Shown here: positions 35,825 to 57,574 of the stretch, piece by piece | Position numbering within the stretch: the stretch's first letter is position 1 | Layout: each line of letters starts with the position of its first letter | Assembly (NCBI GenBank): GCA_002842515.1 | Contig: PHDC01000001.1 | Location: 1,860,001-1,924,000, forward strand | Origin: Bacteroidetes bacterium HGW-Bacteroidetes-5 | GTDB lineage: Bacteria > Bacteroidota > Bacteroidia > Bacteroidales > UBA932 | DNA: 64,000 bases | Direction of reading: 5' to 3' | Notes under the pieces: generated by a model | Database searches by the model: none | Seen by the model: only the letters and a program-made list of their open reading frames with translations | What the model was told of the DNA's origin: nothing | Position numbers and translations under genes: made by a program

Positions 35825-37165
35825 ATGAAAAAAACATTAGCTCTTATTTTTGCCCTTTTATCTCTGAATCTTGTTCTTGCACAGAGCGTGATAATCTCGG
35901 GTAAGGTGACAAGCGAGAAGAGGCCTGCCGATCTCTCTCTTGTGACAATTGTTGACGGAAATACCGCTGTTATTGCAACTGCCGTGCCTTCTGCCGATGG
36001 ATCATTCGGATTTGCTTTTACGCCTGACTATGAGGGTTTCTTTATGATAGGCGGCGCCAAGGAGACGGATGTTCAGTTCCCGGTTTACATTAAGGGGGGT
36101 GAAAATTTTAATGTTGTCATAAATGATAAGGCAATAGTCTATGAGGGGAAGCTCTCTGCGGAGAATAAAATTCTGGCTCAGTGGGTTGCTATGAGCGAAG
36201 TTGTCCGGAATAAATCTCACTACTGGATGACCACTCAGAGCATATTCAAAGATTTCTTCCCTGAACTTGAGGTGCTGGCTGCAAAGGTTCCTGCATTCGT
36301 TGCCGGGATTAACACCAGGAATGTGAAGTTTAATGCTCTTATGAAGGACTATGTGAAGTTCTCTACCGAGTATTATGCAATCAACTTCTTAAGGGTTCCC
36401 AGACAATCTCATCCGGATAAAAATGAGTTGACTAACTATTACAAAACAATAGTGACTCCAAACCACTTCCTGAATGACAATGTCTTGCAGATTCCTTTGA
36501 GCAAGAGGTATATCTCTATGTATGTCTCTTTTGCTTGCAGCGATGACAGAGATACAGATAAACAGCTTCTCCATCTGGTAACAGATAAGCAGAAGGCATT
36601 ACTACTCTCTTATTCTGTGCTTCCATATATCAAAAGCTATGATCTTTATCTGGATTTTGTCGGGAAGTATGGGAAGTATTTTGCAACTCCCGACCAGAAA
36701 AAACTTCTTGACGAGACCGGTGCAAAGCTCTATGAGACCAAAGCCGGTGGTGTAGCAGCCAACTTCACATACCCCGACGCAAGCGGTAAGATGATCTCTC
36801 TCTCCGATTTCAAAGGTAAAGTGGTGCTTGTAGATGTTTGGGCCACCTGGTGCGGCCCCTGCAAGCAGCAGATCCCTTTTATGAAGAAACTCGAGGAGGA
36901 GCTTCACGGGATGGATGTTGTTATCCTGAGTGTCTCGGTTGACGAGGAGAAGGATAAAGAGAAGTGGAAGCAGATGGTTATTGACGAGAAGCTTGGCGGT
37001 GTACATATTTTTGCCAGCGGATGGAGTAAAATCTGCAAAGATTATAAGATCACAGGTATCCCTCGTTTTATGCTCTTTGACAAGAACGGTAATGTAATCT
37101 CTACAGAGGCCCCAAGACCATCGGACCCTGCACTTAAGACTCTAATAATGAAGTATCTTAAATAG
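35825..37165 (+). CDS. Exported TlpA-family thioredoxin-like protein (WCGPC)
   Basis: GKVVLVDVWATWCGPCKQQIPFMKKLEEE; signal peptide. Confidence 0.92.
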   Translation: MKKTLALIFALLSLNLVLAQSVIISGKVTSEKRPADLSLVTIVDGNTAVIATAVPSADGSFGFAFTPDYEGFFMIGGAKETDVQFPVYIKGGENFNVVINDKAIVYEGKLSAENKILAQWVAMSEVVRNKSHYWMTTQSIFKDFFPELEVLAAKVPAFVAGINTRNVKFNALMKDYVKFSTEYYAINFLRVPRQSHPDKNELTNYYKTIVTPNHFLNDNVLQIPLSKRYISMYVSFACSDDRDTDKQLLHLVTDKQKALLLSYSVLPYIKSYDLYLDFVGKYGKYFATPDQKKLLDETGAKLYETKAGGVAANFTYPDASGKMISLSDFKGKVVLVDVWATWCGPCKQQIPFMKKLEEELHGMDVVILSVSVDEEKDKEKWKQMVIDEKLGGVHIFASGWSKICKDYKITGIPRFMLFDKNGNVISTEAPRPSDPALKTLIMKYLK

Positions 37166-37205
37166 ACCGCTCTTTATTTATTGAAATAATTTCCGGGTAA
37201 TTCAT

Positions 37206-37290
37206 TCCGGTCACCGCACACAAAGTTAAGTTGTTAATTGGGTTAATGGTTAGTAGTTTGTATGTGCAGTGGCCGGATTTTTATTTTATA
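37206..37290 (+). terminator. Long-range stem followed by T-rich tract (possible terminator)
   Basis: TCCGGTCACCGCACA (37206-37220) vs TGTGCAGTGGCCGGA (37263-37277), then TTTTTATTTTAT; 42-nt loop. Confidence 0.45.
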
Positions 37291-37317
37291 AAGTTTAACA
37301 CTAATAATTTCTATTAA

Positions 37318-38028
37318 ATGAAAACAAATGTTCTACTATCTGCACTACTAATTATCAACTTTATCTCTCCATTTTACAGCTTTGCAAATGGAATTTCCAC
37401 TCCTGACGCAGACAAAAACAGACCTCTTATCAAGACTATAGACAGTATATCTGTAATTAGTAAAGAGCTTACACTTATTGTGGTTGGTTATGAGGGTTGT
37501 GCTCCTTGCAAAATGCTTAAAAACAGCGACTATTATAAAAAACTTGCCATAGGCAAAACCTATCTGGACATCCTTAACAGCAACGATGAGAAGCTTTTTG
37601 CTCAACTCTTTTTAATAACCGGCTATCCTACATCCATTGTAATGGATAGTGAGTGGAATCTAAAAAGCATTGTTCTTGGCTACCGCAACTACGAAGCCCG
37701 TATGGATTCGGTGCTTAATGCCGGAGCACAACTATACGATATACGGCTTAAAGATATTACGAAAGAGAGGGCGATTGAGATGTTCGGGTATGCACTTAAG
37801 GCTTTGCGTTGCTACTGGAGTGGCGACTATATGCAGATGCAGAGGTTAGCTCTTAAATCGCGTGAAAACGGCGAATATTTTTTCAACAACTATCTGCTTT
37901 ATGTAGCGGCAACAAAGAGGGGAGATTCCGGCGATGCAGCACTCTACAAAAACGAAATTGCCACCAAATTTTCCGACAAAATGCACCGCTCAATCTACGC
38001 CGAAATGTTCACCGAAATGCAGCTCTGA
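37318..38028 (+). CDS. Exported thioredoxin-fold protein with CAPC motif
   Basis: LTLIVVGYEGCAPCKMLKNSDYYKKL...LFLITGYPTSIVMD; signal peptide. Confidence 0.75.
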   Translation: MKTNVLLSALLIINFISPFYSFANGISTPDADKNRPLIKTIDSISVISKELTLIVVGYEGCAPCKMLKNSDYYKKLAIGKTYLDILNSNDEKLFAQLFLITGYPTSIVMDSEWNLKSIVLGYRNYEARMDSVLNAGAQLYDIRLKDITKERAIEMFGYALKALRCYWSGDYMQMQRLALKSRENGEYFFNNYLLYVAATKRGDSGDAALYKNEIATKFSDKMHRSIYAEMFTEMQL

Positions 38029-38157
38029 TGAGGGCGGCATTTCGGCTCTGAAATTTTTTGCTTTTTTCCACATAATCAGTGGTTTAGCCAGTTTTTCGGT
38101 TTTGCCGTAACTCGCTGTACAACAGGCAAAAAGCAAAAAATCTCAGAGCTGCATTTC
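38014..38157. repeat. Nested, mutually exclusive inverted repeats
   Basis: GAAATGCAGCTCTGA (38014-38028) vs TCAGAGCTGCATTTC (38143-38157) perfect; GCTCTGAAATTTTTTGCTTTTT (38045-38066) vs AAAAAGCAAAAAATCTCAGAGC (38128-38149), 21/22. Confidence 0.85.
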
Positions 38158-38216
38158 CCATCCTGCCGCAAACTGATGTGAAAAAGGCCATAAATAGCAA
38201 AGAATCATACAATTAA

Positions 38217-38248
38217 TTTGGAATTTATGCAGTAATTACATAAATTTG
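38217..38248 (+). promoter_or_regulatory. Putative Bacteroidetes promoter TTTG-N20-TAAATTTG
   Basis: TTTG 38217-38220, TAAATTTG 38241-38248, 20-bp spacer. Confidence 0.6.
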
Positions 38249-38477
38249 TTAAGAGATTGAAAAGTTGAAAAACTCAGGGTAAATTTCACGAAAATTTGAG
38301 TCCCGCAAACTTAAAAACCGTTTTGAAATTTACTCAAAGATCAACCCCTGGCAAGGAATATGAACTATTAATGTAAATACAAAACGGCGAACAAAGTTAG
38401 CAAATTCTCGTAGCAATTATCAATTATTGCGGATTGACAAAATCATTTCCAGTTACAAATTTCAAAAACTAATATTT

Positions 38478-38798
38478 ATGAAAAAAACACTTTCAGCAAT
38501 ACTTTTAAGTATTATAATTTTTGTTGCTAACAGCTCATCAACAAAAGCTCAATCTTTACCGGGATCTTGTCCTGATGGATTGGTGTGGGACCCGGATATC
38601 TTTATGTGTGTAACAGGGGATCCGGCAATTATCACCTGCGATTCTGGTTCGAGTGGGTATTGCTTCGAACTTAGATTCGATGATGAAAACAATTTGTATT
38701 GTCCTTGGGACTGTTTCTGGACAGGAAAAGCTAACGATTATTGTAATAGATTTTACGCTGTTCTGTTAAATCTCTGTATATCATTAGGTAGCGATTAG
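38478..38798 (+). CDS. Small exported cysteine-rich protein (8 Cys after predicted signal peptide)
   Basis: MKKTLSAILLSIIIFVANSSSTKAQ signal, then Cys-rich ~80-aa domain; ATG at 38478 preferred over upstream start. Confidence 0.65.
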   Translation: MKKTLSAILLSIIIFVANSSSTKAQSLPGSCPDGLVWDPDIFMCVTGDPAIITCDSGSSGYCFELRFDDENNLYCPWDCFWTGKANDYCNRFYAVLLNLCISLGSD

Positions 38799-38800
38799 TT

Positions 38801-39955
38801 ATGAGAAATAGACAGTACAATTTTTTAATTACACTTTTCACTATTTTATCATCAGTCTCGTGCATAAATGGTGCACGAGATTTTGATAAAGGGAGTAATA
38901 TTATTGGTGTTGATTTAGATACAATTCAATTTCAACCATCAATTAATAACTTATTTGAAAAAGTGGAGATTATTCCGCTTGAGACTAGGAAAGAATCAAT
39001 TATTGAGTCTGCATCAAGGCTTAAGCATCAGGTATATAATGACAAACACTATATTTTGTCTGTAAAACAAAATAAACTTTTTGTTTTTGACCGTAAGGGA
39101 AATTTTGTAAAGACTATTGACAAAATAGGAAATGGTCCCGGTGAGTACAGGATGATTTATGATTTCGAGATTTCCCGTTTCGATGGCAAACTGCATTTGA
39201 TGACTCCATATGGCAGAATGTTAATATATGATAGTGAAGGGGATAAATTTATTGAGAGTTTTCATCTGCCAGACAGTATAAGAGCGGTTCATCAGTTTAA
39301 GATTTTAAATGAAGACATTTATGTATTTAACTCAGATTCAGAAAACAGTGATCTATATTTTTACTCCAAAAGTAAAAACACAATAGTGTTGAGTCTATCA
39401 GTTATGCCAAATTTTCTTACTTCGACTCCGTTTAAGTATGCAAGAACACCCTTCTATTATTACAAAGACTCCTTAAGATATTTTATGGGTTATGACGGTA
39501 CCGTTTTTAATATCAATCCGCAAAACTATTCTCTTGAAAAGAGATATTTTCTTGATTTTGGCAAACGTAACTTTATGTTGGAAAACTTACCTTTAAATGA
39601 GTCTGTAATCTATTATTTTGAACATTATAAAAGCATTTCAAATAAGATAGCTACAGGTTTTGCTATTTACTTTGAAACAGATAAATATCTGATATCGAGA
39701 TATAGTTATAACAACAATCACAACTATCTATTTTATAACAAATCAAATAAAACATTAATGACTGCCTTTAAATTAAAAGAGGGTATTCAATTGAGTTTAA
39801 ATTTTTTGGAAAAGGATACTTTATATAGTTTTATACCAGTTGAATTTGCTCATCTATATGTAAATGATAAAGTTGTAAGCCAGGAGAATTTCAATAGACT
39901 TCAAATGCTTAGTAGTGATTCGAATATGTTCATTATCAAATATGTATTAAAATAA
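38801..39955 (+). CDS. 6-bladed beta-propeller lipoprotein
   Basis: Lipobox SSVSCING; VEIIPLETRKESII...KQNKLFVFDRKGNFVKTIDKIGNGPGEY, typical of the family. Confidence 0.85.
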   Translation: MRNRQYNFLITLFTILSSVSCINGARDFDKGSNIIGVDLDTIQFQPSINNLFEKVEIIPLETRKESIIESASRLKHQVYNDKHYILSVKQNKLFVFDRKGNFVKTIDKIGNGPGEYRMIYDFEISRFDGKLHLMTPYGRMLIYDSEGDKFIESFHLPDSIRAVHQFKILNEDIYVFNSDSENSDLYFYSKSKNTIVLSLSVMPNFLTSTPFKYARTPFYYYKDSLRYFMGYDGTVFNINPQNYSLEKRYFLDFGKRNFMLENLPLNESVIYYFEHYKSISNKIATGFAIYFETDKYLISRYSYNNNHNYLFYNKSNKTLMTAFKLKEGIQLSLNFLEKDTLYSFIPVEFAHLYVNDKVVSQENFNRLQMLSSDSNMFIIKYVLK

Positions 39956-39964
39956 TGAGAGAAG

Positions 39965-40561
39965 ATGAAAATAAGTAAATTAACTGCAACGATTTTATTA
40001 GTATTAAGCATATTAACCAGTGTTTTCGTTTGTCTGATTTATCTGAGTATAAATAAGAGTTTTAGCCCAAGTACAGATAATAAAAGCGATATCACAAAAT
40101 TGATTCTCTTAACACAGGCTCATACATCTGCAGAAAATGATAATTTATACATAGATTCGGACAAAATTTTAGAGTATTGTTCCAGAAACGGGTTATCTGA
40201 CTCACCCGTTTTTGTCATCAACTATTCGTTACTGCACTGTAAATCCTGTATAGACTTTGTTGTAAAGACATTAAAAGAGAAGCTCATTGACTTGGAACAA
40301 CGTAAAAACATTCTTTTTGTTGCTAAGGATTTCAGGGAAGAGAGTAAAAGCAAGTACGGGAACTCTGTATTCTTAAAACCGGGAAAAGCATTGGATATTC
40401 CTGCAGATAATTGCGGAATGCCGTTTGTTTTTGTCTATTACAAGGGTCAGATTTTGCACACTTTCATTCCGGATATTGCCAACAAAAATGTATTTCTTTC
40501 ATACCTCGATGTGATTTTTAAGAGGTATAATATTATCGGGCCAGAATCTTCAATAACTTGA
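39965..40561 (+). CDS. Membrane-anchored thioredoxin-fold-like protein with CKSC motif
   Basis: N-terminal TM; VFVINYSLLHCKSCIDFVVKTL...GMPFVFVYYKGQILHTF. Confidence 0.55.
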   Translation: MKISKLTATILLVLSILTSVFVCLIYLSINKSFSPSTDNKSDITKLILLTQAHTSAENDNLYIDSDKILEYCSRNGLSDSPVFVINYSLLHCKSCIDFVVKTLKEKLIDLEQRKNILFVAKDFREESKSKYGNSVFLKPGKALDIPADNCGMPFVFVYYKGQILHTFIPDIANKNVFLSYLDVIFKRYNIIGPESSIT

Positions 40562-40567
40562 TAAATA

Positions 40568-40960
40568 ATGATTATGACAAAAAAAATTCTTACACTAATT
40601 TTTTCGATGTTCCTTATTGTCTCGCTTACCTATTCACAAGGAGTCACTAAGGAGGAGAGGCAGTTGTATGAAAAGCTATTAAAGCAAGACAGCACACTTA
40701 CAACCCGGGAGCTAGAGCTAAAATACAAAGTATTTGAGCTTTATACCCAGATACATACCGATGGTAAAAAGATCTATACCAACCTAAAGGAGGAGGATTT
40801 CAAAAAGAGAGAGGTCCCGCTTTTCTTTTATGTAGATTTTGTAAAAGGTCTGGAGGGGATGAATAAAATGATAAGCGAAGGCTCCGGCCTTACACCTGCC
40901 CAAGTACACGCGATGGTAAAAAGTATTAAAGAGGGATATAGCAAGATGAGTAAGAAGTAA
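40568..40960 (+). CDS. Small exported protein of unknown function
   Basis: Signal peptide MTKKILTLIFSMFLIVSLTYSQG; no motif recognised. Confidence 0.6.
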   Translation: MIMTKKILTLIFSMFLIVSLTYSQGVTKEERQLYEKLLKQDSTLTTRELELKYKVFELYTQIHTDGKKIYTNLKEEDFKKREVPLFFYVDFVKGLEGMNKMISEGSGLTPAQVHAMVKSIKEGYSKMSKK

Positions 40961-41026
40961 TCTATAAAAGAGTTGTAATTGATTGGTTGCTGGAAGAGAT
41001 TTAGCTTGGTTTCAAACTTGTTTTTT

Positions 41027-41034
41027 TATATTTG
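41027..41034 (+). promoter_or_regulatory. Putative -7 box (TATATTTG) upstream of sigma gene
   Basis: TAnnTTTG, 13 nt before GTG at 41048. Confidence 0.5.
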
Positions 41035-41047
41035 AGAAAATTTTGAA

Positions 41048-41614
41048 GTGGTAGACAATAGTTATAAATTCATTGCACAAGCCATTAAAGAGGGTAATGA
41101 AAAGGTGTTTGCCGCCTTTATGGCTTCTGAATTCAATAACATTGTCCACTTTATAAATCACTTTGTTAAACACTTCGAGGTTGCAAATGATCTGGCTCAA
41201 GAGACATTTATCTCACTGTGGTTTTCAAGAGAAACTATTGACCCGAATCAAAATTTCCGCTCCTATATATTTAGAATTGCTAAAAACAAATCTCTAAACC
41301 AGTTGCGCCAACAATATATGTGGTGTACAGATAGTCTGGAAAAGAAGAATATAGATCTGTCAATAAACACACTAAAGAGTGAGCAGGTTGACACCGAGAT
41401 AATGGCACTTGAATTGGAAGAGCTAATTGAGAGAACCTATTCACAACTCCCCACAACCTATAGGGAGAGTTTTATTTTAAGCAGAAAAATGGGGATGACC
41501 TATGAGGAGATAGCTGAATCAAAAGGTTTGTCAGCTAAGACAATTGAGTACCATATAAGTAAAGCCCTTATATTTTTCAGGAAAAGACTCTCAGGTTATT
41601 TTAAAATATTTTAA
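41048..41614 (+). CDS. ECF RNA polymerase sigma factor (subtype B)
   Basis: DLAQETFISLWFSR; YEEIAESKGLSAKTIEYHISKALIFFRKRL; GTG start. Confidence 0.92.
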   Translation: MVDNSYKFIAQAIKEGNEKVFAAFMASEFNNIVHFINHFVKHFEVANDLAQETFISLWFSRETIDPNQNFRSYIFRIAKNKSLNQLRQQYMWCTDSLEKKNIDLSINTLKSEQVDTEIMALELEELIERTYSQLPTTYRESFILSRKMGMTYEEIAESKGLSAKTIEYHISKALIFFRKRLSGYFKIF

Positions 41615-47802: not shown

Positions 47803-49509
47803 ATGAAGATTAAATTTAATGCTGTTTTAATAATTCTGCTGTTTGCGGGAAGCCCTGCGATTACATCGAAGAATCTTAGGAGCATAGATACTGAATTTGG
47901 AGCTATGCCGGTTCGAAATTTGGAAATTAAAGGCTTCCCACAAGGAGCGCAGGTAGTAGAGCTTGGAAATCTCTGCGGAAATACAAAAGATGAACTGATA
48001 CTTGGATGCGACTCAACTGTGTATATCTGCACAATAATTAAAGATTCTGCCCACGTGCTCTTTTCACATAGTTTTGATGAGCCTGTTCTTAAACTCCGTA
48101 CAGGAGATGCAGATAATGACGGGAAAAATGATCTGGTTCTGATAACCGGCTATACGAAATATACGGACTCGGATGTAAAGGTATATATTGTGAAATATTA
48201 TGATAAAGAACCGGGTGTTAGTGGGGGTAAATGGAGTGTTTCTGAGTTGTACACAAAGGCATCTGAAAGACCGCAACCACTATATCTGGAGATTGCCGAC
48301 ATAGACAATGATTATAAAAATGAGATTATTGCCTCTTATTATGAATCCAAGTATATGGTTGAGACAGTTCTGATATCTTTTTCATCAGGAAACTGGAGCA
48401 GCAAAATTTTTCTTACCGAAAGAATGTCTACTGCATTTGATATAGGAAAAATCAATGAGAAGAATCTGTTTCTTGTTGGAAGGGTTTATGGTGACTCTCT
48501 TGGCGACGAAGGTGATGCCTATATCCTGGATGGCAAAGTCAAAACCGGTCTTAGAGTAAGAAGAGGGGTAAAATCGGCAATCAAAATCGGAGATGGAGAT
48601 AATGACGGGAAGAATGAAATTTATGTCGGAGACGGCTGGCATCAGAATTACGGTAAAATTGCACGGGGAAGGTTGGCTGTAATTAGAGATGATTTTACAT
48701 ATAAACTAATAGAAGATGTTAAAGAACAGACTAACTTAGATCAGATAGAGATTGCCGACATAGACTGTGACGGGAAAAATGAAGTGCTTACCTCCGGAAA
48801 CAGATTTTTCAGGATTTATCGTTATACCGGTGACGGTGTTGGTGATTCTGATGGACGTTGGCAGGTATTCAAAGACCCTATTTTCAATTCTGACACACTG
48901 CTCAAGCCGGATCAGTTTGCAATAGGTCACATAAATGAAGATAAGATACCTGATTTGGTTTTCGCAGGAAAACTCAACAGGAGGGATAGGGGTGTAAGGG
49001 TGTTTAATTTCAAAAACCTTGTATACAGCGATAAACTGGATAAAGAGGTTGTTACAAAGGTTGTTAATCCCGATTCGCTATTAAACAAACCCGCCCCCGA
49101 GTTGATAATGAACCGTTGGTGCAACGGGGAATTCCCCGGAATCAGAAAATCACAGGGTAAAGTTATTGTACTTGATTTCTGGGCAACCTGGTGCGTGCCT
49201 TGCAAGAGAATGTTCCCTGCTCTTAGAGAGCTTCAGGAGAAATACCGGAGTCGTGGCCTTATAATTGCCGGCGTAACAAAGGTAGATGCTACCCAGAGTG
49301 TTGCCGTTATTGAGAAATATGTGAAAGAAGAGAAATTCAACTACCTGATGGGAATCTCTGAGGAGACCTTTAATGACCTGGCCTATGGTGTTGGAGCAAT
49401 TCCCCATATGGTGCTGATTGACAAAAAGGGAGTAGTAAGAAAATATATAGTGGGATTTCACGATGTCGAGGCCCTGGAAAAAGAGATATTAAAGCTGATT
49501 GAGGAGTAG
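47803..49509 (+). CDS. FG-GAP/VCBS-like beta-propeller fused to TlpA-like thioredoxin domain (WCVPC)
   Basis: Repeats DADNDGKNDLVL, DIDNDYKNEIIA, DGDNDGKNEIYV, DIDCDGKNEVLT; C-terminal KVIVLDFWATWCVPCKRMFPALRELQ. Confidence 0.88.
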   Translation: MKIKFNAVLIILLFAGSPAITSKNLRSIDTEFGAMPVRNLEIKGFPQGAQVVELGNLCGNTKDELILGCDSTVYICTIIKDSAHVLFSHSFDEPVLKLRTGDADNDGKNDLVLITGYTKYTDSDVKVYIVKYYDKEPGVSGGKWSVSELYTKASERPQPLYLEIADIDNDYKNEIIASYYESKYMVETVLISFSSGNWSSKIFLTERMSTAFDIGKINEKNLFLVGRVYGDSLGDEGDAYILDGKVKTGLRVRRGVKSAIKIGDGDNDGKNEIYVGDGWHQNYGKIARGRLAVIRDDFTYKLIEDVKEQTNLDQIEIADIDCDGKNEVLTSGNRFFRIYRYTGDGVGDSDGRWQVFKDPIFNSDTLLKPDQFAIGHINEDKIPDLVFAGKLNRRDRGVRVFNFKNLVYSDKLDKEVVTKVVNPDSLLNKPAPELIMNRWCNGEFPGIRKSQGKVIVLDFWATWCVPCKRMFPALRELQEKYRSRGLIIAGVTKVDATQSVAVIEKYVKEEKFNYLMGISEETFNDLAYGVGAIPHMVLIDKKGVVRKYIVGFHDVEALEKEILKLIEE

Positions 49510-49598: not shown

Positions 49599-49639
49599 CT
49601 ATAAGAGTGCATTGCAGCTCAGAGTTACAAACTTGTTAC

Positions 49640-49647
49640 TATATTTG
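49640..49647 (+). promoter_or_regulatory. Putative -7 box (TATATTTG) upstream of sigma gene
   Basis: TAnnTTTG, 16 nt before proposed GTG at 49664. Confidence 0.55.
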
Positions 49648-49663
49648 TTTAAAATCATTAGGG

Positions 49664-50254
49664 GTGGCAGATTTTTTTGGCAGCAAGGAGTTTAAATCTG
49701 TTAATGAGCAGTATATAGAGAAGATATATGTTACTCATTACTGGAGGGCTGTCAATTATGCCAATCAGTTTTTAAGAGATAAGGAGCTTTCAAGGGAGAT
49801 GGCTCAGGATGCCTTTATCAGCCTTTGGGAGAAGCGGGAGAGCCTGGATCTGAACAACAATGTTGAGTACTATCTGCTATCTACGGTAAGGAATAAGGTT
49901 TTTAACCATCTGCGACATAAGCAAAGGCGGGCTAAACATATGGGGGAGGAGCTTCCGGTGAGCGAGAGACTGAACTTGATAGGTTTAGAAGATTCGTCGT
50001 CGGAAAAGCTGCTCTACAGTGAGTTATCTGCAATTCTCAAAAAAACTTTAAATGAAATGACACCGAGTATACGGGAGACATTTCTTTTGTGCAGGGAGGA
50101 GGAGCTCTCTTACAAAGAGATTGCAGATAAACTTGGAGTCTCGGTAAAGAGCGTAGAGTACAGAATCTCCAAGGCACTTGCAATATTGAGAGAGGCGTTG
50201 GGCGACTATCTGCCTCTGCTGTTACCGATGATTTTTTTTAGGGATTTAGGTTAG
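49664..50254 (+). CDS. ECF RNA polymerase sigma factor (subtype B)
   Basis: MAQDAFISLWEKRE; YKEIADKLGVSVKSVEYRISKALAILREAL; GTG at 49664 preferred because the longer ORF runs through the terminator and promoter. Confidence 0.9.
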   Translation: MADFFGSKEFKSVNEQYIEKIYVTHYWRAVNYANQFLRDKELSREMAQDAFISLWEKRESLDLNNNVEYYLLSTVRNKVFNHLRHKQRRAKHMGEELPVSERLNLIGLEDSSSEKLLYSELSAILKKTLNEMTPSIRETFLLCREEELSYKEIADKLGVSVKSVEYRISKALAILREALGDYLPLLLPMIFFRDLG

Positions 50255-50256
50255 TT

Positions 50257-51276
50257 ATGGAAAATGGTGTATGTAATTATATGGAAGAGTTAATTATAAA
50301 GTATTTGAAAGGGGAAGCATCTAAAAATGAGATGCTTGAAATAGAGGCCTGGGTTAAAGAGTCTGTCGAAAACAGAAAACTGTTTGCGAAAAAGGTTAAT
50401 CTGTATGCAATATCTGCAAACTTAGAGGGTAAGGCAGATATGTGTGACCTCGATAAAATTGTGAAAGCGATAAGAAGATTAGACAGAAGGAGAAGCGTTA
50501 CGAGATATTTTGCTGCTGCAGCACTTGCAACCGGCCTTATAGTGGGGGCTGCCCTTTACACCTCCTATAAAATCGGCTCCTATAAAAATGATGTGGAGTA
50601 TATATTGGCACAATCCAACACCAATCTGGAGTACTCGACCCCATATGGAGTCAAGAGCAAAATATCCCTTCCCGATAATAGTGTCGTTTGGTTAAATTCA
50701 GGGAGTAGAATTAGCTTCCCGTCTAAATTTGCAGGCAATGAGAGGTTAATCTCATTCTCCGGCGAGGGGTTCTTTGATGTTGCCAAAGACTCACTGCGGC
50801 CTATGAAGATAAATACCCCCGGCGGGGTTACTGTCAATGTGCTGGGAACGAAGTTTAACCTGGATACCTATGCAGAGGACAGATCAATGTCACTTCTGCT
50901 GCTAAGCGGCAGAGTTAATATCCGGATGAAAAATGGCTCTCTCATTGAGAATATAAAACCCTCCGAAAAGATTGTGATAAACAAAATCGACACAAAAGCT
51001 AAGATTAATTCTGTTAAAGACACTCTGCCTACAACCGGATGGAGGGACGGGTGGCTAATCTTTGACGATCTTACCCTCTCGGAGGTGTTTGTAAAGATGA
51101 AGAGATGGTACGGAATTACTATAAAAGTTGAGGATAATTCAATTCTTGAGAAGAGGCTCTCTGCAAAGTTCCGCGAAGAGTCTGCATCACAGGTGCTGGA
51201 CCTAATGCGTAAGACTCAGCTTATTAACTATACAATCGTAGACAGCATTGCATACGTAAAAAATTATTCCTGGTAA
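50257..51276 (+). CDS. FecR-family anti-sigma factor (subtype B)
   Basis: SLPDNSVVWLNSGSRISFP, ISFSGEGFFDVAKD, VNVLGTKFNLDTY; alternative ATG at 50281. Confidence 0.92.
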   Translation: MENGVCNYMEELIIKYLKGEASKNEMLEIEAWVKESVENRKLFAKKVNLYAISANLEGKADMCDLDKIVKAIRRLDRRRSVTRYFAAAALATGLIVGAALYTSYKIGSYKNDVEYILAQSNTNLEYSTPYGVKSKISLPDNSVVWLNSGSRISFPSKFAGNERLISFSGEGFFDVAKDSLRPMKINTPGGVTVNVLGTKFNLDTYAEDRSMSLLLLSGRVNIRMKNGSLIENIKPSEKIVINKIDTKAKINSVKDTLPTTGWRDGWLIFDDLTLSEVFVKMKRWYGITIKVEDNSILEKRLSAKFREESASQVLDLMRKTQLINYTIVDSIAYVKNYSW

Positions 51277-51301
51277 ATTCACCGCTGCATTTAGGGTGGA
51301 G

Positions 51302-51342
51302 ATTAAATTTGGCGTATGTACTTATAGAAAACCAAATTTAAT
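51302..51342 (+). promoter_or_regulatory. Inverted repeat 3 nt upstream of susC ATG, left arm containing a TAAATTTG -7-like box
   Basis: ATTAAATTTGG (51302-51312) vs CCAAATTTAAT (51332-51342), perfect 11 bp. Confidence 0.65.
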
Positions 51343-51345
51343 TCT

Positions 51346-54300
51346 ATGAAAAAAGTATTATTGTTATTTTCGATGATCTTTTTCTCCCTTGTGATTTTCG
51401 CTCAAGATGTGAAGATCACAATCAAGATGGAGAACGAGCCTATAAAATCTATCCTCAATGAGATAGAGAAAAAATCTAACTACACATTTGTCTACTCCTC
51501 AACTCTTATCGACACCAAGAGGAATATCTCCCTGGTGGCAGATAACGAAAAGCTGGAGACAGTTGTTGCAAAGCTTTGTACAATTGCCGGGCTCAACTAC
51601 TCATTTGAGGGTAAACGAGTTGTATTGACCCAGAAACTTACTGCCAAAGAGCCTTCAAAGTTAGAATCGAAACAGGTTCAGATAAAAGGTAAGGTGATTG
51701 ACGACGAAAACCAGCCTTTGGCCGGTGCCTATGTCTTCTTTAAAAACGACATTAATGTATGCGGAATAACCGACCTTGATGGGCATTTTAGCTTCTCTGC
51801 AGATGAAAATTCTGTCAAAGGAGATGCTCTTGTTGTAAAGTATATCGGGATGAAGGGTGTTGAGATCCCTTATATTGGAACAACCGATTATATAATTAAC
51901 CTCGAACAGGATACCAGGTTACTTGAAAATGTGATAGTGACAGGTTATCAAACAATTTCTAAGGAGAGGAGTGCCGGCTCGTTCTCTCTTGTAAAAGGAG
52001 AGGTTGTTCAAGATAAGGCAAATATAAGCGGAAGTCTTATACAGAGTCTTGAAGGCCAGGCTGCCGGTCTAAATGTGAACATTAAATCAAATGGCGATGA
52101 GGAATTTCTCATAAGAGGTCTTACCTCAATAAACTCAAATAAACAACCATTGATTGTTGTGGATGGAGTTGCCGTATCTCAGAGTGTTCTTAATAATATG
52201 ATTAGCAATAACGATATCAGTACAGTTACTTTTTTGAAAGATGCAACTGCTGCATCTATCTGGGGTTCCAGAGCTGCAAACGGGGTTATTGTAATTACGA
52301 CTAAAACAGGAAAGGATACCAACAGAAAAGTTGATGTAAGCTATAATGGCAGCTATACATATAAAGGGATGCCCGACTATAGCTATCAAAATATGATGGA
52401 TCCACAAATGTTTATCAAAACAGCTAAAGAGACTTTTGATCCTGTTGCCTGGCCTTGGGATCAGATTAATAGCGGAATTCTCAACAATGAAAAACCTCAG
52501 GTTTACAGACACGAGAAAATTCTTTATGATTTTAACAGAGGGCTTATAACAGAGAGTCAAATGAATACGGAGCTTGCAAAATTGGCTGCTCTCAATAACA
52601 GAAATCAGTATGAAGACTATTTTATGCAGCCTGCATTTGGTACAACGCATAATGTGTCGCTCACAGGAGGAGGGTCGTTTTACAAGTACTATTTCTCTCT
52701 TGGGTATGAAAATACAGGGTCAAATAGTAGGAGTGCTACAAATAAGTTTATGATTAATTCCAGGCAAGAGTTTAATTTTACATCGTGGCTTAAGGTAGAT
52801 TTGGGGATTAATCTTGGGATGACAACCGGAAGTAACCAGGTTATGCCTACAGGTGGTCTATCTACGATTCCATATATGATGTTTGCAGATGATAATGGGA
52901 ATCCGCTTTCTCATTCCGACCTGCTCTTTATGGATAGTTTTCGTCTAACAAAACAACAGGCCGGTGATATAAATTTAGACTTTATTCCACTCAAAGATGC
53001 TGTTGGGTCATATAACAAATCATTGGTAAATAATTCACGGGTTAATGCCGGGGTGAACATCAAAATAATCAAGGGGCTAACCTTTGATGGCAGATATTAT
53101 TATCAGAGGGGTAATGGTAAAAATGAGAGTTATTTAAGCAGGGATACGTGGGCTGTAAGAAACGAGACTGCCTTTTTTACTCAACCAAAGGCATCTTCAA
53201 CTACTTTACCAACGTTCTATCTGCCAACTAAAGGTGGAAACTATGATGTGATTTATTCTCAAAGTACAGATTGGACAGTTAGGAATCAATTCTCTTACGA
53301 GAATATGTTCGATAACTCAAAACATCAGATTAATGCTTTGGCCGGGATAGAGTTAAGGGCAAGCAGAGATATTAGTACTATTTCCCGGTCAAAAGGATAT
53401 GATCCTCAACTCCTAACATTCCAGCCCTACGATGAAAAGCTGTTGGCTGTAACGGGTATTACAAATCCACTATTAAGAAATACAACCAGCGGAAATAATA
53501 AGCTATTAACTCCATCAACCCAATTTGGAGAGACTGAGGTTAGATATTTATCAATGTACTCTAACGTAGGCTATACATTCAATAATAAATACTCGATTAA
53601 TGCGAGTGTAAGGGTAGATCAGTCCAACCTTTTTGGAACAGATAAAAGTGTTCAGTTTAAGCCTATCTGGTCTACTGGTTTTGTGTGGAACCTGGCAAAT
53701 GAGAATTTTATGAAGGAGCAGAATATGTTCGACAGGCTAATGCTTAGATTCAGCTACGGACTTGCCGGTAACTCTCCCGACCCTGGAAAGGGTGGCCCGT
53801 ATAATGTTATAAGGGTAATTACAGTAGGTAATACTATTTTCAACAATCTTGGCTCCGGGTTTGAGATTGAATATCCGGCAAATACAAGGCTGACTTGGGA
53901 GCAGACCCGTACAATTAACTTTGGAGCCGACTTCTCAATTTTAAACAATAGAGTAAGTGGCAGCCTGGATGTTTATAATAAATATACTACAAACCTACTT
54001 GCCAATCTGGACCTGGCCTCAATTTCCGGATGGAGTACAACTTTTGCTAACACCGGCATAATGTCAAACAAAGGTGTAGAATTAACAGTTAATAGTATAA
54101 ATATCAACAATAAAGATTGGAAATGGAGTACAAATTTCTCCTTCTCATACAATGCCAATAAGATTGTAAAGCTATATGACGCTAATACCTTCTTTACAAT
54201 CTACAAACCAAATTATGAGGGCTTCCCAGCAAATACATTGTGGGCATACAAATTTGCCGGGCTTGACGATATGGGAGATCCACTCACATACAATGCTAAT

Positions 54301-54885
54301 GGAGATTTGGTAAAGGTTTCAACAGCGATTGACCAGAATACCAAACTTGGTGAAAACAAAAGCATTGTTAACGCTGGAGTTATGACACCTCCTTTTTATG
54401 GTGGTCTAACCAACAATATTAAATACAAAGATTTTGAACTCTCTTTTATGTTTATTTACAACTTGGGACACAAGATGTTTAACACATCTTCTAACTTCTC
54501 GGGTAGATTGACAAGAAATATTGACAAAGATTTTGACAAACGGTGGAGGAAGATAGGTGATGATACAAATATTCCTTCCTATGCCCCGAATACTGCTCTT
54601 GAAATAAGACGTAATACCGACTTTTACTTTAGGGGGGATATAAATGTGCTTAATGCCTCATATGTCAAGTTAAGAGACCTGAGTATTGCATATTCGCTTC
54701 CTTCAAATATCTGCAACAAACTTTACACAGATAAGATAAAGGTTAGATTCCAGGTCACCAATCTGCTCACAATTGCTGCTAATAAAAAAGGGTTTGATCC
54801 GGAGGCCCATAATCTAACAAATGGTTCGAGATACAATAAATTTGGTCCTTCTTTTTCAATAGGACTTACCGTAAATTTTAAATAG
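51346..54885 (+). CDS. SusC/RagA TonB-dependent transporter with STN domain (subtype B)
   Basis: STN KITIKMENEPIKSILNEIEKKSNYTFVYSSTLIDT; LENVIVTGYQTISKERSAGS; SIWGSRAANGVIVITTKTGK. Confidence 0.95.
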   Translation: MKKVLLLFSMIFFSLVIFAQDVKITIKMENEPIKSILNEIEKKSNYTFVYSSTLIDTKRNISLVADNEKLETVVAKLCTIAGLNYSFEGKRVVLTQKLTAKEPSKLESKQVQIKGKVIDDENQPLAGAYVFFKNDINVCGITDLDGHFSFSADENSVKGDALVVKYIGMKGVEIPYIGTTDYIINLEQDTRLLENVIVTGYQTISKERSAGSFSLVKGEVVQDKANISGSLIQSLEGQAAGLNVNIKSNGDEEFLIRGLTSINSNKQPLIVVDGVAVSQSVLNNMISNNDISTVTFLKDATAASIWGSRAANGVIVITTKTGKDTNRKVDVSYNGSYTYKGMPDYSYQNMMDPQMFIKTAKETFDPVAWPWDQINSGILNNEKPQVYRHEKILYDFNRGLITESQMNTELAKLAALNNRNQYEDYFMQPAFGTTHNVSLTGGGSFYKYYFSLGYENTGSNSRSATNKFMINSRQEFNFTSWLKVDLGINLGMTTGSNQVMPTGGLSTIPYMMFADDNGNPLSHSDLLFMDSFRLTKQQAGDINLDFIPLKDAVGSYNKSLVNNSRVNAGVNIKIIKGLTFDGRYYYQRGNGKNESYLSRDTWAVRNETAFFTQPKASSTTLPTFYLPTKGGNYDVIYSQSTDWTVRNQFSYENMFDNSKHQINALAGIELRASRDISTISRSKGYDPQLLTFQPYDEKLLAVTGITNPLLRNTTSGNNKLLTPSTQFGETEVRYLSMYSNVGYTFNNKYSINASVRVDQSNLFGTDKSVQFKPIWSTGFVWNLANENFMKEQNMFDRLMLRFSYGLAGNSPDPGKGGPYNVIRVITVGNTIFNNLGSGFEIEYPANTRLTWEQTRTINFGADFSILNNRVSGSLDVYNKYTTNLLANLDLASISGWSTTFANTGIMSNKGVELTVNSININNKDWKWSTNFSFSYNANKIVKLYDANTFFTIYKPNYEGFPANTLWAYKFAGLDDMGDPLTYNANGDLVKVSTAIDQNTKLGENKSIVNAGVMTPPFYGGLTNNIKYKDFELSFMFIYNLGHKMFNTSSNFSGRLTRNIDKDFDKRWRKIGDDTNIPSYAPNTALEIRRNTDFYFRGDINVLNASYVKLRDLSIAYSLPSNICNKLYTDKIKVRFQVTNLLTIAANKKGFDPEAHNLTNGSRYNKFGPSFSIGLTVNFK

Positions 54886-54900
54886 TAAAGAATTTCTGTT

Positions 54901-56415
54901 ATGAAAAATAGAAGAATAATATATTCGTTGTTACTCTTAACGGGTTTAATAGTATCAACTTCGGGTTGCACTAAGTTTCTGGACTTAAAGCCTAAGGGTA
55001 AGGATGTTCCAAGAACATTTGCTCACTTTGACGGTATGCTTAACACTACTAGAATGTTGCAGATGATATGGTCGGCTCCAAATCCAAATGGTCCCGGATA
55101 TAATTTTAGCAGAGGGCTGGATCCGTTCTGGATTTTTATGACTGATGAGCTTATCGCTCCTACACCAACTGAGTTTGATGTATTTGCTAAAGAGCAGAAG
55201 GAGGCTTTTAAATTTGCCGATAATATCTTGATCTATACTACAGAAGAGATGAATACCTGGAGTGGTCTTTACTCTTTTATCTACACAAACAATGTGATTA
55301 TAAACAACGTACCTAACCTTAAAGATGGTTCCGATAGTGATAGGAAGGCACTTATTGCAGAGGCAAAGGTAAACAGAGCTCATTTTCACCATCTGCTTGC
55401 CCAGACCTTTGGTAAACCATACAGAAAGGCATCCGAAGAGACCGACCTGGCCGTTCCTTTGGTTACCGAGGCCTCGATAGGGATTCTTGACTACAAAAGA
55501 GCTACAAATAAAGAGTTGTATGATTATATAATTAATGATTTGAAAGAGAGTATTCCTATGTTAAAAGAGGGCGCCGGCACAAAACTAAGAGTGCACAGGG
55601 CAGCAGGTTATTTTGTTCTAGGTAGAATTCTGTTTGATATGGGTATGTATTCAGAGGCACAGGAGGCGCTCATCAGTTGCCAGACAGAGACGGCTAAAGC
55701 TGTAATTCCGATAGCTCTCTTTGACTATACCGATGATTCTAAATCGTTCTCTTTATGGGGTTACAATCCGGCATCTCCACACGCTTGGAGAACCGGATAC
55801 TTTCTGCCGGAAGATGAGAGAAATACCGAAATCATAAATGCGAATTATTTTACTCAGAATATTATTGTTTACACAGGAACCCAGTTGGCTAACGCCGTGT
55901 TTGTAAAGGATGATTATATGGCTAAATTCTCTGCAAACGACAGACGAAGAAGGTTTTTTGCAGATAGAAGATACACAGGAACTCCTATATGGGGTCGTTT
56001 TAAAAGAATCAACAAATGGCAAACTCCTTATGGAGCAAATCTGCCCGACTTATACCTAATGCTTGCGGAGTGCTACGCCAGAACCGGAAATGATGCCAAA
56101 GCCCGCGAGAGTGTTATGCTTTTGAGAAGTAAGCGGATAGTTGGGGCAACAGAAGCGGCAATACCTACATCGGTAAACAGTAAAGATCTGCTTATTAAAT
56201 TCATTGTTGATGAAAGACTGCGTGAAAATATGATGACAGGAATGCGGTGGTTTGATATCCGTAGACTTTGGAACGATCCTCTCTTTCCGGAGATTAAAAC
56301 AAATTCTGTTCATACACTAGGAACAGAGACCTATACCCTTACTGAAAAGAGGTTGTCACTCAGGATTCCACCTAAAGATTTGAGGATGTGTCCAAGTTTA
56401 ATTAATAATGATTAG
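54901..56415 (+). CDS. SusD/RagB-family lipoprotein
   Basis: Lipobox STSGCTKFLDLKPKGK; AEAKVNRAHFHHLLAQTFGKPY; VDERLRENMMTGMRWFDIRRLWNDP. Confidence 0.88.
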   Translation: MKNRRIIYSLLLLTGLIVSTSGCTKFLDLKPKGKDVPRTFAHFDGMLNTTRMLQMIWSAPNPNGPGYNFSRGLDPFWIFMTDELIAPTPTEFDVFAKEQKEAFKFADNILIYTTEEMNTWSGLYSFIYTNNVIINNVPNLKDGSDSDRKALIAEAKVNRAHFHHLLAQTFGKPYRKASEETDLAVPLVTEASIGILDYKRATNKELYDYIINDLKESIPMLKEGAGTKLRVHRAAGYFVLGRILFDMGMYSEAQEALISCQTETAKAVIPIALFDYTDDSKSFSLWGYNPASPHAWRTGYFLPEDERNTEIINANYFTQNIIVYTGTQLANAVFVKDDYMAKFSANDRRRRFFADRRYTGTPIWGRFKRINKWQTPYGANLPDLYLMLAECYARTGNDAKARESVMLLRSKRIVGATEAAIPTSVNSKDLLIKFIVDERLRENMMTGMRWFDIRRLWNDPLFPEIKTNSVHTLGTETYTLTEKRLSLRIPPKDLRMCPSLINND

Positions 56416-56458: not shown

Positions 56459-57574
56459 ATGAAGAAAATAGTTTTAGTGTTCTCAATAGCACTGTTTGGT
56501 TTCACTGCACAGGCTCAGATCAATTTTGAGACAGGGAGTTTTAACGATGCCCTTAAAAAAGCATCTGCAGAAGGGAAGATGATATTTATGGACTGTTACA
56601 CAGACTGGTGTATGCCGTGCAAAATTTTGGATCATTTTGTTTTCAAGAGCGTAGAAGGGGGGGAGTATTTCAATAAGATGTTTATCAATTTTAAGATTGA
56701 TATGGAGAAGGGAGAGGGAATTGATCTGCAGAAAAAGTACAAAGTTACCTCTTATCCAACTCTTTTGCTTATAAATCCCGATGGAACAGAGCATAACAGG
56801 CTCACAGGCGCAACCAATAACCCTAAGGAGTTTATTGCAAGGGTAGAAGAGGCTGCAAAGAGGGAGAATAGCCCTGTTTTTCAAAAACAGTTGTATGAGA
56901 ACGATAAATCTAGGGCCAACCAATACTTTTCATTCCTTCTCTCAAGAGGCGAGTACAAAAGCGTCTCAGACCTTATGCAGGAGACATTTAAATTAAGAAC
57001 TCCTCAGGAGAATTATAGCGCAGAGTCTTTTGCACTATACGAAAAGGCTATTCACGATATCTTCAACCCGCTCTATTTTGAGATTCTTTCAGATGGGGAT
57101 AATGCCGTAAAGGTACTTGGAGAGGAGAGGTATACCGGTTTTGTAAACGCTAAATGGTCATCTACATTCACTTCACTTGCCGGCTCAATAATGACGGGCA
57201 ACTTAAATAGTGAGAGTGAGCAGATGAAGAGGTTATCTGAGATGGTTTCAAAATTCCCTATTCTTAATAAGGGTAGTGTGAAATTTCTTTATACTGCACA
57301 GAAGCAGATGATTGCTCAAAATGCTCCGGAGTTGTGTGCTATAGCATATGATTTTATAGAGAAGGGCGATAAATTTGACGAAAACACAATTCCGGGAGCA
57401 ATCTCAATTCTGGTTTTCTATAATAAAGATTATAAACCTGCAATAGAGTTCTTCGAAAAGCTGGCATCTTATACAAAGGATGAAGCCAACCGCACAAAAT
57501 TCCTCAAAAGTGCAGAGGCGTATAAAGAGATTCTAAAAAAACAGGCAGAGAAAGCGGCTAACGCAGCCAAATAA
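56459..57574 (+). CDS. Exported thioredoxin-family protein (WCMPC)
   Basis: KMIFMDCYTDWCMPCKILDHFVF...YKVTSYPTLLLINPDG; signal peptide. Confidence 0.9.
   Translation: MKKIVLVFSIALFGFTAQAQINFETGSFNDALKKASAEGKMIFMDCYTDWCMPCKILDHFVFKSVEGGEYFNKMFINFKIDMEKGEGIDLQKKYKVTSYPTLLLINPDGTEHNRLTGATNNPKEFIARVEEAAKRENSPVFQKQLYENDKSRANQYFSFLLSRGEYKSVSDLMQETFKLRTPQENYSAESFALYEKAIHDIFNPLYFEILSDGDNAVKVLGEERYTGFVNAKWSSTFTSLAGSIMTGNLNSESEQMKRLSEMVSKFPILNKGSVKFLYTAQKQMIAQNAPELCAIAYDFIEKGDKFDENTIPGAISILVFYNKDYKPAIEFFEKLASYTKDEANRTKFLKSAEAYKEILKKQAEKAANAAK

Follow-up and report, generated by a model that had tools for sequence, protein, structure and literature searches.

Three adjacent genes, encoding an exported Cys-rich peptide, a beta-propeller lipoprotein and a membrane-anchored protein with a CxxC motif, form a unit whose recurrence across Bacteroidota is well supported by the sequence comparisons described here. 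On balance, we think that the three probably also work as one functional unit, in which an exported disulfide-rich peptide would be accompanied by its own handling proteins. With this recurrence, genes that had looked hypothetical and unrelated become a single system that can be tested.

The triad lies in the window (the whole 64-kb stretch of DNA that was analysed), where 38478-40960 on the + strand hold four consecutive genes separated by 2, 9 and 6 bp. The initial annotation had described just such a same-strand cassette with short gaps, and all of its open reading frames are present on that strand. It had also counted the last of them, a small exported protein, as a cassette member, and this did not hold up. 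The fourth gene has no family match in Pfam or NCBIfam, occurs in just three genomes, all of one genus, and is missing from every other triad. This distribution places it outside the unit and rules it out as a fourth component. The features of the locus are as follows.

38478..38798, + strand: exported Cys-rich peptide precursor (106 aa, ATG start, signal peptide at about residues 1-24)
38801..39955, + strand: six-bladed beta-propeller lipoprotein, DUF5128/DUF4934 (384 aa; Pfam PF17170, 2e-37)
39965..40561, + strand: membrane-anchored thioredoxin-like protein (198 aa, CKSC at residues 92-95)
40568..40960, + strand: small exported protein with no family match (130 aa; within the block shared with genome G008, outside the conserved triad)
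38217..38248, + strand: putative Bacteroidetes-type promoter (TTTG-N20-TAnnTTTG), proposed from a perfect pattern match and its position upstream of the cassette
38265..40963, + strand: block common to the window and G008 (about 2.7 kb, about 97% DNA identity, flanks differ)

The promoter pattern occurs six times in the 64 kb, where chance alone would give 1.9. Scans for sigma-70 promoters and terminators stayed at chance level, Rfam gave no match within 38000-41100, and PADLOC found no defence match in the triad.

Recurrence of the triad

The genome to which the window belongs contains 24 DUF5128 matches, and most of its propellers have neither a peptide gene nor a CxxC gene beside them, unlike the cassette propellers. 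An exported ORF with at least four Cys lies upstream of all three propellers that adjoin a CxxC gene, whereas the same rule selects one of the 22 other propellers (where the ORF is a ferredoxin) and one of 130 other genes (p 0.0017 and 1e-5, respectively, by Fisher's test). Peptide, propeller and CxxC protein are thus found together more often than chance would allow. The genome has another cassette outside the window (G000:C1:1358383-1361371; L051:2384-5372), in which two exported peptides with four Cys each precede two propeller lipoproteins and an anchored CKSC protein of 164 aa.

Profile searches with the CxxC family gave matches in 9 of 395 genomes of the order, 16 of 300 of the family and 11 of 399 of the phylum. 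Three of the phylum matches (L171-L173) were discarded, since their neighbourhoods show that they lie in no cassette and are ordinary genes of TlpA-like or peroxiredoxin-like type. The full triad is also present in other classes of the phylum (L166, L167, L169 and L170). Every CxxC gene with at least 2 kb of upstream sequence is adjoined by a propeller-like lipoprotein (36 of 36, 34 by HMM), and in 31 of the 36 loci a fixed rule also found an adjoining exported ORF with at least four Cys. At L057 and L123 the exported Cys ORF was recognised by eye, and no obvious peptide was seen at L209, L217 and L220. Loci L166-L170, L174 and L202-L221 had been found through the CxxC profile alone, blind to their neighbours. 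Gene neighbourhoods across the phylum, which the initial annotation had named as a check, bear out the link between peptide, propeller and CxxC genes. Furthermore, propeller similarity and CxxC similarity go together across 35 loci (Mantel rho 0.365, 0 of 2000 permutations), and where the peptide core is of the window type, the propellers and CxxC proteins are also the closest to those of the window (p 1e-5 and 4e-5). The core type was assigned by us from the peptide sequence, and shared vertical descent contributes to the co-inheritance signal. Tandem arrays are also found: L170 (in G523) repeats the peptide/propeller/CxxC unit three times in succession, and at L133 (in G224) each of several NVEALA peptides is accompanied by a lipoprotein of its own.

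The peptide is 99% identical in G008 (L021, a Bacteroidales MAG), the two genes differing at three bases, one of which changes an amino acid. As the 2.7-kb block is about 97% identical between the window and G008 and the flanks are different, the unit was moved or kept as a block. Peptide homologs in G001 and G023 have 43% identity over the core. A propeller gene follows the peptide in all three genomes and the CxxC gene is also present in G001 and G023, although the peptide reading frame of G001 (L057) has neither a start nor a signal sequence. In G008, window positions 40063-40448 are missing (compared with L021:3195-3440), a frameshifting 386-bp deletion that removes the CxxC region; peptide and propeller are intact despite the broken CxxC gene. 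A second CxxC-family gene of G008 stands at a contig end (C37, L219). Because the deletion breaks the first gene, CxxC function may be dispensable in G008 or supplied by the gene at L219.

Two further features of the comparison with G008 deserve mention. A stretch of about 150 bp that precedes the peptide gene (window 38282-38429, L021:2-150) is repeated with 91% identity further upstream in G008, where the copy precedes a gene with two copies of the domain of the fourth protein. Over window 49627-51636 and 51929-56375 (compared with L059), identity to G008 falls from 97% to 80% inside the SusC-type gene 51346-54885, as would be expected of a recombination mosaic.

The peptide and its kinship with NVEALA clusters

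The initial annotation read the first gene as a precursor of about 106 aa with a signal peptide and eight Cys. This was correct: the protein has a Sec-type signal sequence, with the leader ending ..SSSTKA-QSLPG, and Cys at positions 31, 44, 54, 62, 75, 79, 89 and 100, in the pattern given there. The conservation of these residues, which had been named as a check, held in part, as Cys 54, 62, 75, 79, 89 and 100 are kept in same-genus homologs (six of eight) and Cys 31 and 44 are not. The layout is one of a core (54, 62, 79 and 89), a pair (75/100) and a private pair (31/44). Cys 75 and 100 are both missing from the L214 peptide, and Cys 31 and 44 are both missing from the other homologs. Because these residues are lost in pairs, disulfides 75-100 and 31-44 are probable; the four core Cys we infer to be paired among themselves. 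Of 28 cassette peptides, 24 have an even number of Cys in the mature part (p 9e-5), as do 19 of 23 when one peptide per locus is counted (p 0.0013). There are, therefore, strong grounds in the sequences for regarding the window peptide as disulfide-bonded.

Single-sequence searches with the peptide found relatives within the genus only, the weak matches being mostly unrelated ORFs. No relative was found in viral contigs, the PDB gave no sequence match of value, and the AF2 model (pLDDT 49) was too weak for use. A match to the chitin-binding family CBM_14 (17 bits against a cut-off of 22.1) was dropped because it spans only the region of the two non-conserved Cys.

No NVEALA motif had been seen in the window peptide, and the profile searches agree. 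PF14055 has no match in this genome at E up to 1, and none for the peptide at E up to 10; the peptide has no match at the family threshold of 27 bits and no extended leader that ends in N-V-E-A-L-A or a similar motif. The suggested resemblance to NVEALA/propeller clusters was likewise substantiated, both by a triad on a Phocaeicola vulgatus plasmid (pPvulCL10_1 of strain CL10T00C06, M0N98_RS20855-20845) that stands beside, or includes, a gene annotated as NVEALA and by peptides that bridge the two types, combining an NVEALA leader with a window-type core. For example, the L214 and L121 peptides, with leaders judged NVEALA-type by eye, score 36.1 and 22.0 bits against the window core profile, with 0 of 2000 Cys-fixed shuffles as good in either case, and L123 scores 10.9 bits (1 of 2000). 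Against PF14055, L214 scores 13.2 bits, L123 18 bits and L202 23.1 bits, and L121 has no Pfam match. The core that aligns between window-type and NVEALA-leader peptides reads C...C...C-x-[FWY]-[TS]-G-x4-C. Since NVEALA-leader relatives carry its Cys core, the window version is, by this comparison, a divergent branch of the NVEALA/propeller clusters without the NVEALA leader. The NVEALA clusters of Bacteroidales resemble the window cassette in that a small, Cys-rich exported peptide adjoins a propeller of the DUF5128 type, and a member of the same CxxC family is often present too. However, the window cassette has a plain signal peptide, no PF14055 match and no adjoining S26 or Wzy_C gene.

Many NVEALA-type cassettes are larger, with genes for an S26 signal peptidase, a Wzy_C/TPR membrane protein and an F5/8-type C lipoprotein of about 650 aa. 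(A transglutaminase-like identity for the last was rejected, as it matches only the F5/8-type C domain.) S26 genes, often with the other two, are seen at L122, L123, L128, L133, L135, L207, L213, L214 and L218. Among cassettes with a readable peptide, S26 is found near nine (L121, L122, L123, L128, L135, L207, L213, L214 and L218), and all nine peptides have an extended NVEALA-type leader as judged by eye, a regular expression having missed L121 and L218. Conversely, no S26 gene lies near the nine cassettes whose signal peptide is short and classical (the window, L051, L058, L125, L126, L127, L131, L174 and L212). Given the shortness of the contigs and the assignment of leaders by eye, this link between the extended leader and S26 is suggestive only. 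The A-L-A that ends the NVEALA motif would fit a signal-peptidase-like site, and it is possible that S26 is dedicated to cleavage of the leader in these cassettes and that the peptide is glycosylated.

The propeller and the CxxC protein

The second gene was confirmed as a six-bladed beta-propeller lipoprotein, with a PF17170 (DUF5128) match of 129.5 bits against a cut-off of 22.9 and a lipoprotein-type N-terminal Cys. By score it is a full member of the DUF5128/DUF4934 six-bladed propeller lipoproteins (PF17170, PF16288). Surface-export signals of Bacteroidetes are acidic, and no clear signal of this kind was found in the cassette propellers, which have a mean of 0.47 D/E at +2 to +6 after the lipoprotein Cys (the control set in the window being small). 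With so few acidic residues after the Cys, the propeller probably faces the periplasm.

The initial annotation had described the third gene product as a TM-anchored thioredoxin-like protein with CKSC. The anchor, a single N-terminal TM segment, and the motif, at 92-95, are both present, and C92 and C95 are invariant in 17 of 17 homologs of the CxxC family. The thioredoxin-like assignment itself is upheld with reservations: the best PDB fold matches of a low-confidence single-sequence AF2 model (pLDDT 48) are mostly thioredoxins (best E 0.016), whereas no curated Pfam thioredoxin HMM exceeds its cut-off (Thioredoxin_4, 15.4 bits against 23.2). The protein resembles the anchored oxidoreductases of the thioredoxin fold (TlpA/ResA/DsbA-like, MauD) in its N-terminal anchor, its invariant CxxC and a Pro that precedes a strand close to the C-terminus, and the weak model suggests a thioredoxin-like topology as well. 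However, it differs from them in having no Pfam family above threshold and, for the whole CxxC family, no sequence match in the PDB. MauD and MauE serve disulfide biogenesis in methylamine utilisation. The cassette resembles that system in its anchored CxxC protein, and a MauE-type membrane redox protein (4.6e-23) is encoded at L166:8878-9336, inside an array of peptide cassettes. This is the single such case seen, and there is none beside the window cassette. Other CxxC-containing proteins follow SusC/SusD loci within the window (35825-38028, 47803-49509 and 56459-57574), and at least one of them, at 35825-37165, is a clear thioredoxin-family protein.

What the unit may do

In the mechanism that we propose, the peptide would be synthesised with a Sec signal sequence and cleaved near Ala24, a step for which its sequence gives support. 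The inner-membrane-anchored thioredoxin-like CKSC protein would then form or shuffle the disulfides of the peptide in the periplasm, as its status as a near-universal partner gene and the even Cys counts suggest. The propeller lipoprotein, because subtypes are co-inherited, would be the cognate binder of its peptide subtype and might hold, present or neutralise it. Both of these roles had been put forward in the initial annotation, and both fit the data. Finally, the folded peptide would act outside the cell, on other bacteria or kin more likely than as a housekeeping part, since the unit is patchy, mobile and multi-copy and its peptides are very divergent. In the window branch, an ordinary signal peptide would have replaced the long NVEALA leader and its dedicated S26 signal peptidase. 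Counting against this mechanism are the broken CxxC gene of G008, the G001 peptide frame with neither start nor signal sequence, the few CxxC loci at which no obvious peptide was seen, and the weakness of the CxxC model and of its Pfam thioredoxin matches.

How the peptide acts could be read in several ways. It may be bacteriocin-like, killing or inhibiting related bacteria, with the propeller as immunity protein and the CxxC protein folding the toxin. The patchy distribution of the CxxC family (the 16 of 300 family genomes), the tandem arrays of triads or of peptides with their own propellers (L170 and L133), a plasmid-borne copy, the 2.7-kb block recently shared between species and the very divergent peptides with paired Cys all point this way. 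Among known systems, sublancin/Bdb and pediocin/PedC, which are disulfide bacteriocins with their own oxidoreductase, pair a small Cys-containing exported peptide with a thiol oxidoreductase encoded by a linked gene. However, they differ from the window cassette, which has a propeller partner, is found in Gram-negative hosts and has neither a GG leader nor an ABC or C39 exporter gene in itself or its neighbourhood; moreover, we know of no established class of propeller immunity proteins. We regard this account as possible, if somewhat doubtful. A part in the surface or envelope, with a structural or adhesive peptide that is processed and possibly glycosylated in the larger clusters, is unlikely: S26 and Wzy_C genes adjoin many NVEALA-type cassettes, but neither is near the window cassette or others with short signals. 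The peptide could instead be a pheromone, with the propeller as its periplasmic receptor or carrier, and in favour of this there is one co-inherited propeller per peptide subtype and the want of a clear surface-export signal. Such signalling is quite improbable, as no sensor kinase or regulator constantly adjoins the cassette; the ECF sigma/FecR genes downstream of it in the window are part of SusCD loci, and a different sigma gene adjoins it in G008.

Two other explanations would set the proposed unit itself aside. As a CxxC motif alone does not set the direction of electron flow, the anchored protein might be a reductase and the Cys-rich protein its redox or metal-binding substrate, not stably disulfide-bonded. 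This is very unlikely, given that the even Cys counts and the gain and loss of Cys in pairs favour structural disulfides. That the genes are chance neighbours with no shared function is favoured by nothing except that the peptide ORF is small, and it is scarcely credible in view of the specificity within its own genome, the recurrence at 36 loci, the co-inheritance and the presence of the same triad in unrelated genomes.

A functional unit of peptide and handling proteins thus remains our preferred reading, and its constant part throughout the phylum is the peptide, the propeller and the anchored CxxC protein, with the NVEALA leader optional. More tentatively, as a plausible rather than a probable extension, these may make up a phylum-wide Bacteroidota system of a hypervariable disulfide peptide, an anchored thioredoxin-like foldase and a cognate propeller serving as immunity protein or receptor, of which the NVEALA clusters would be one elaborated branch. 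NVEALA peptides and propellers recur in Bacteroidales, gut species included, yet only as Pfam names. The literature searched, which excluded preprints and most subscription journals, contained no mention of NVEALA, and targeted searches of the same scope found no description of the triad; as those sources lay outside the search, this absence speaks only weakly for novelty. Should the peptide turn out to be antagonistic or a signal, dominant gut bacteria would be the source of a new class of secreted disulfide peptides. In the elaborated branch with S26 and the Wzy_C ligase, the peptide is perhaps also specially cleaved and glycosylated. The model organism Bacteroides thetaiotaomicron (VPI-5482) appears to have this larger form at BT0662-BT0669, judging from listed annotations alone: O-antigen ligase family (BT0662), hypothetical (BT0663), propeller (BT0664), signal peptidase I (BT0667) and RND adaptor (BT0669) (PMC10434189).
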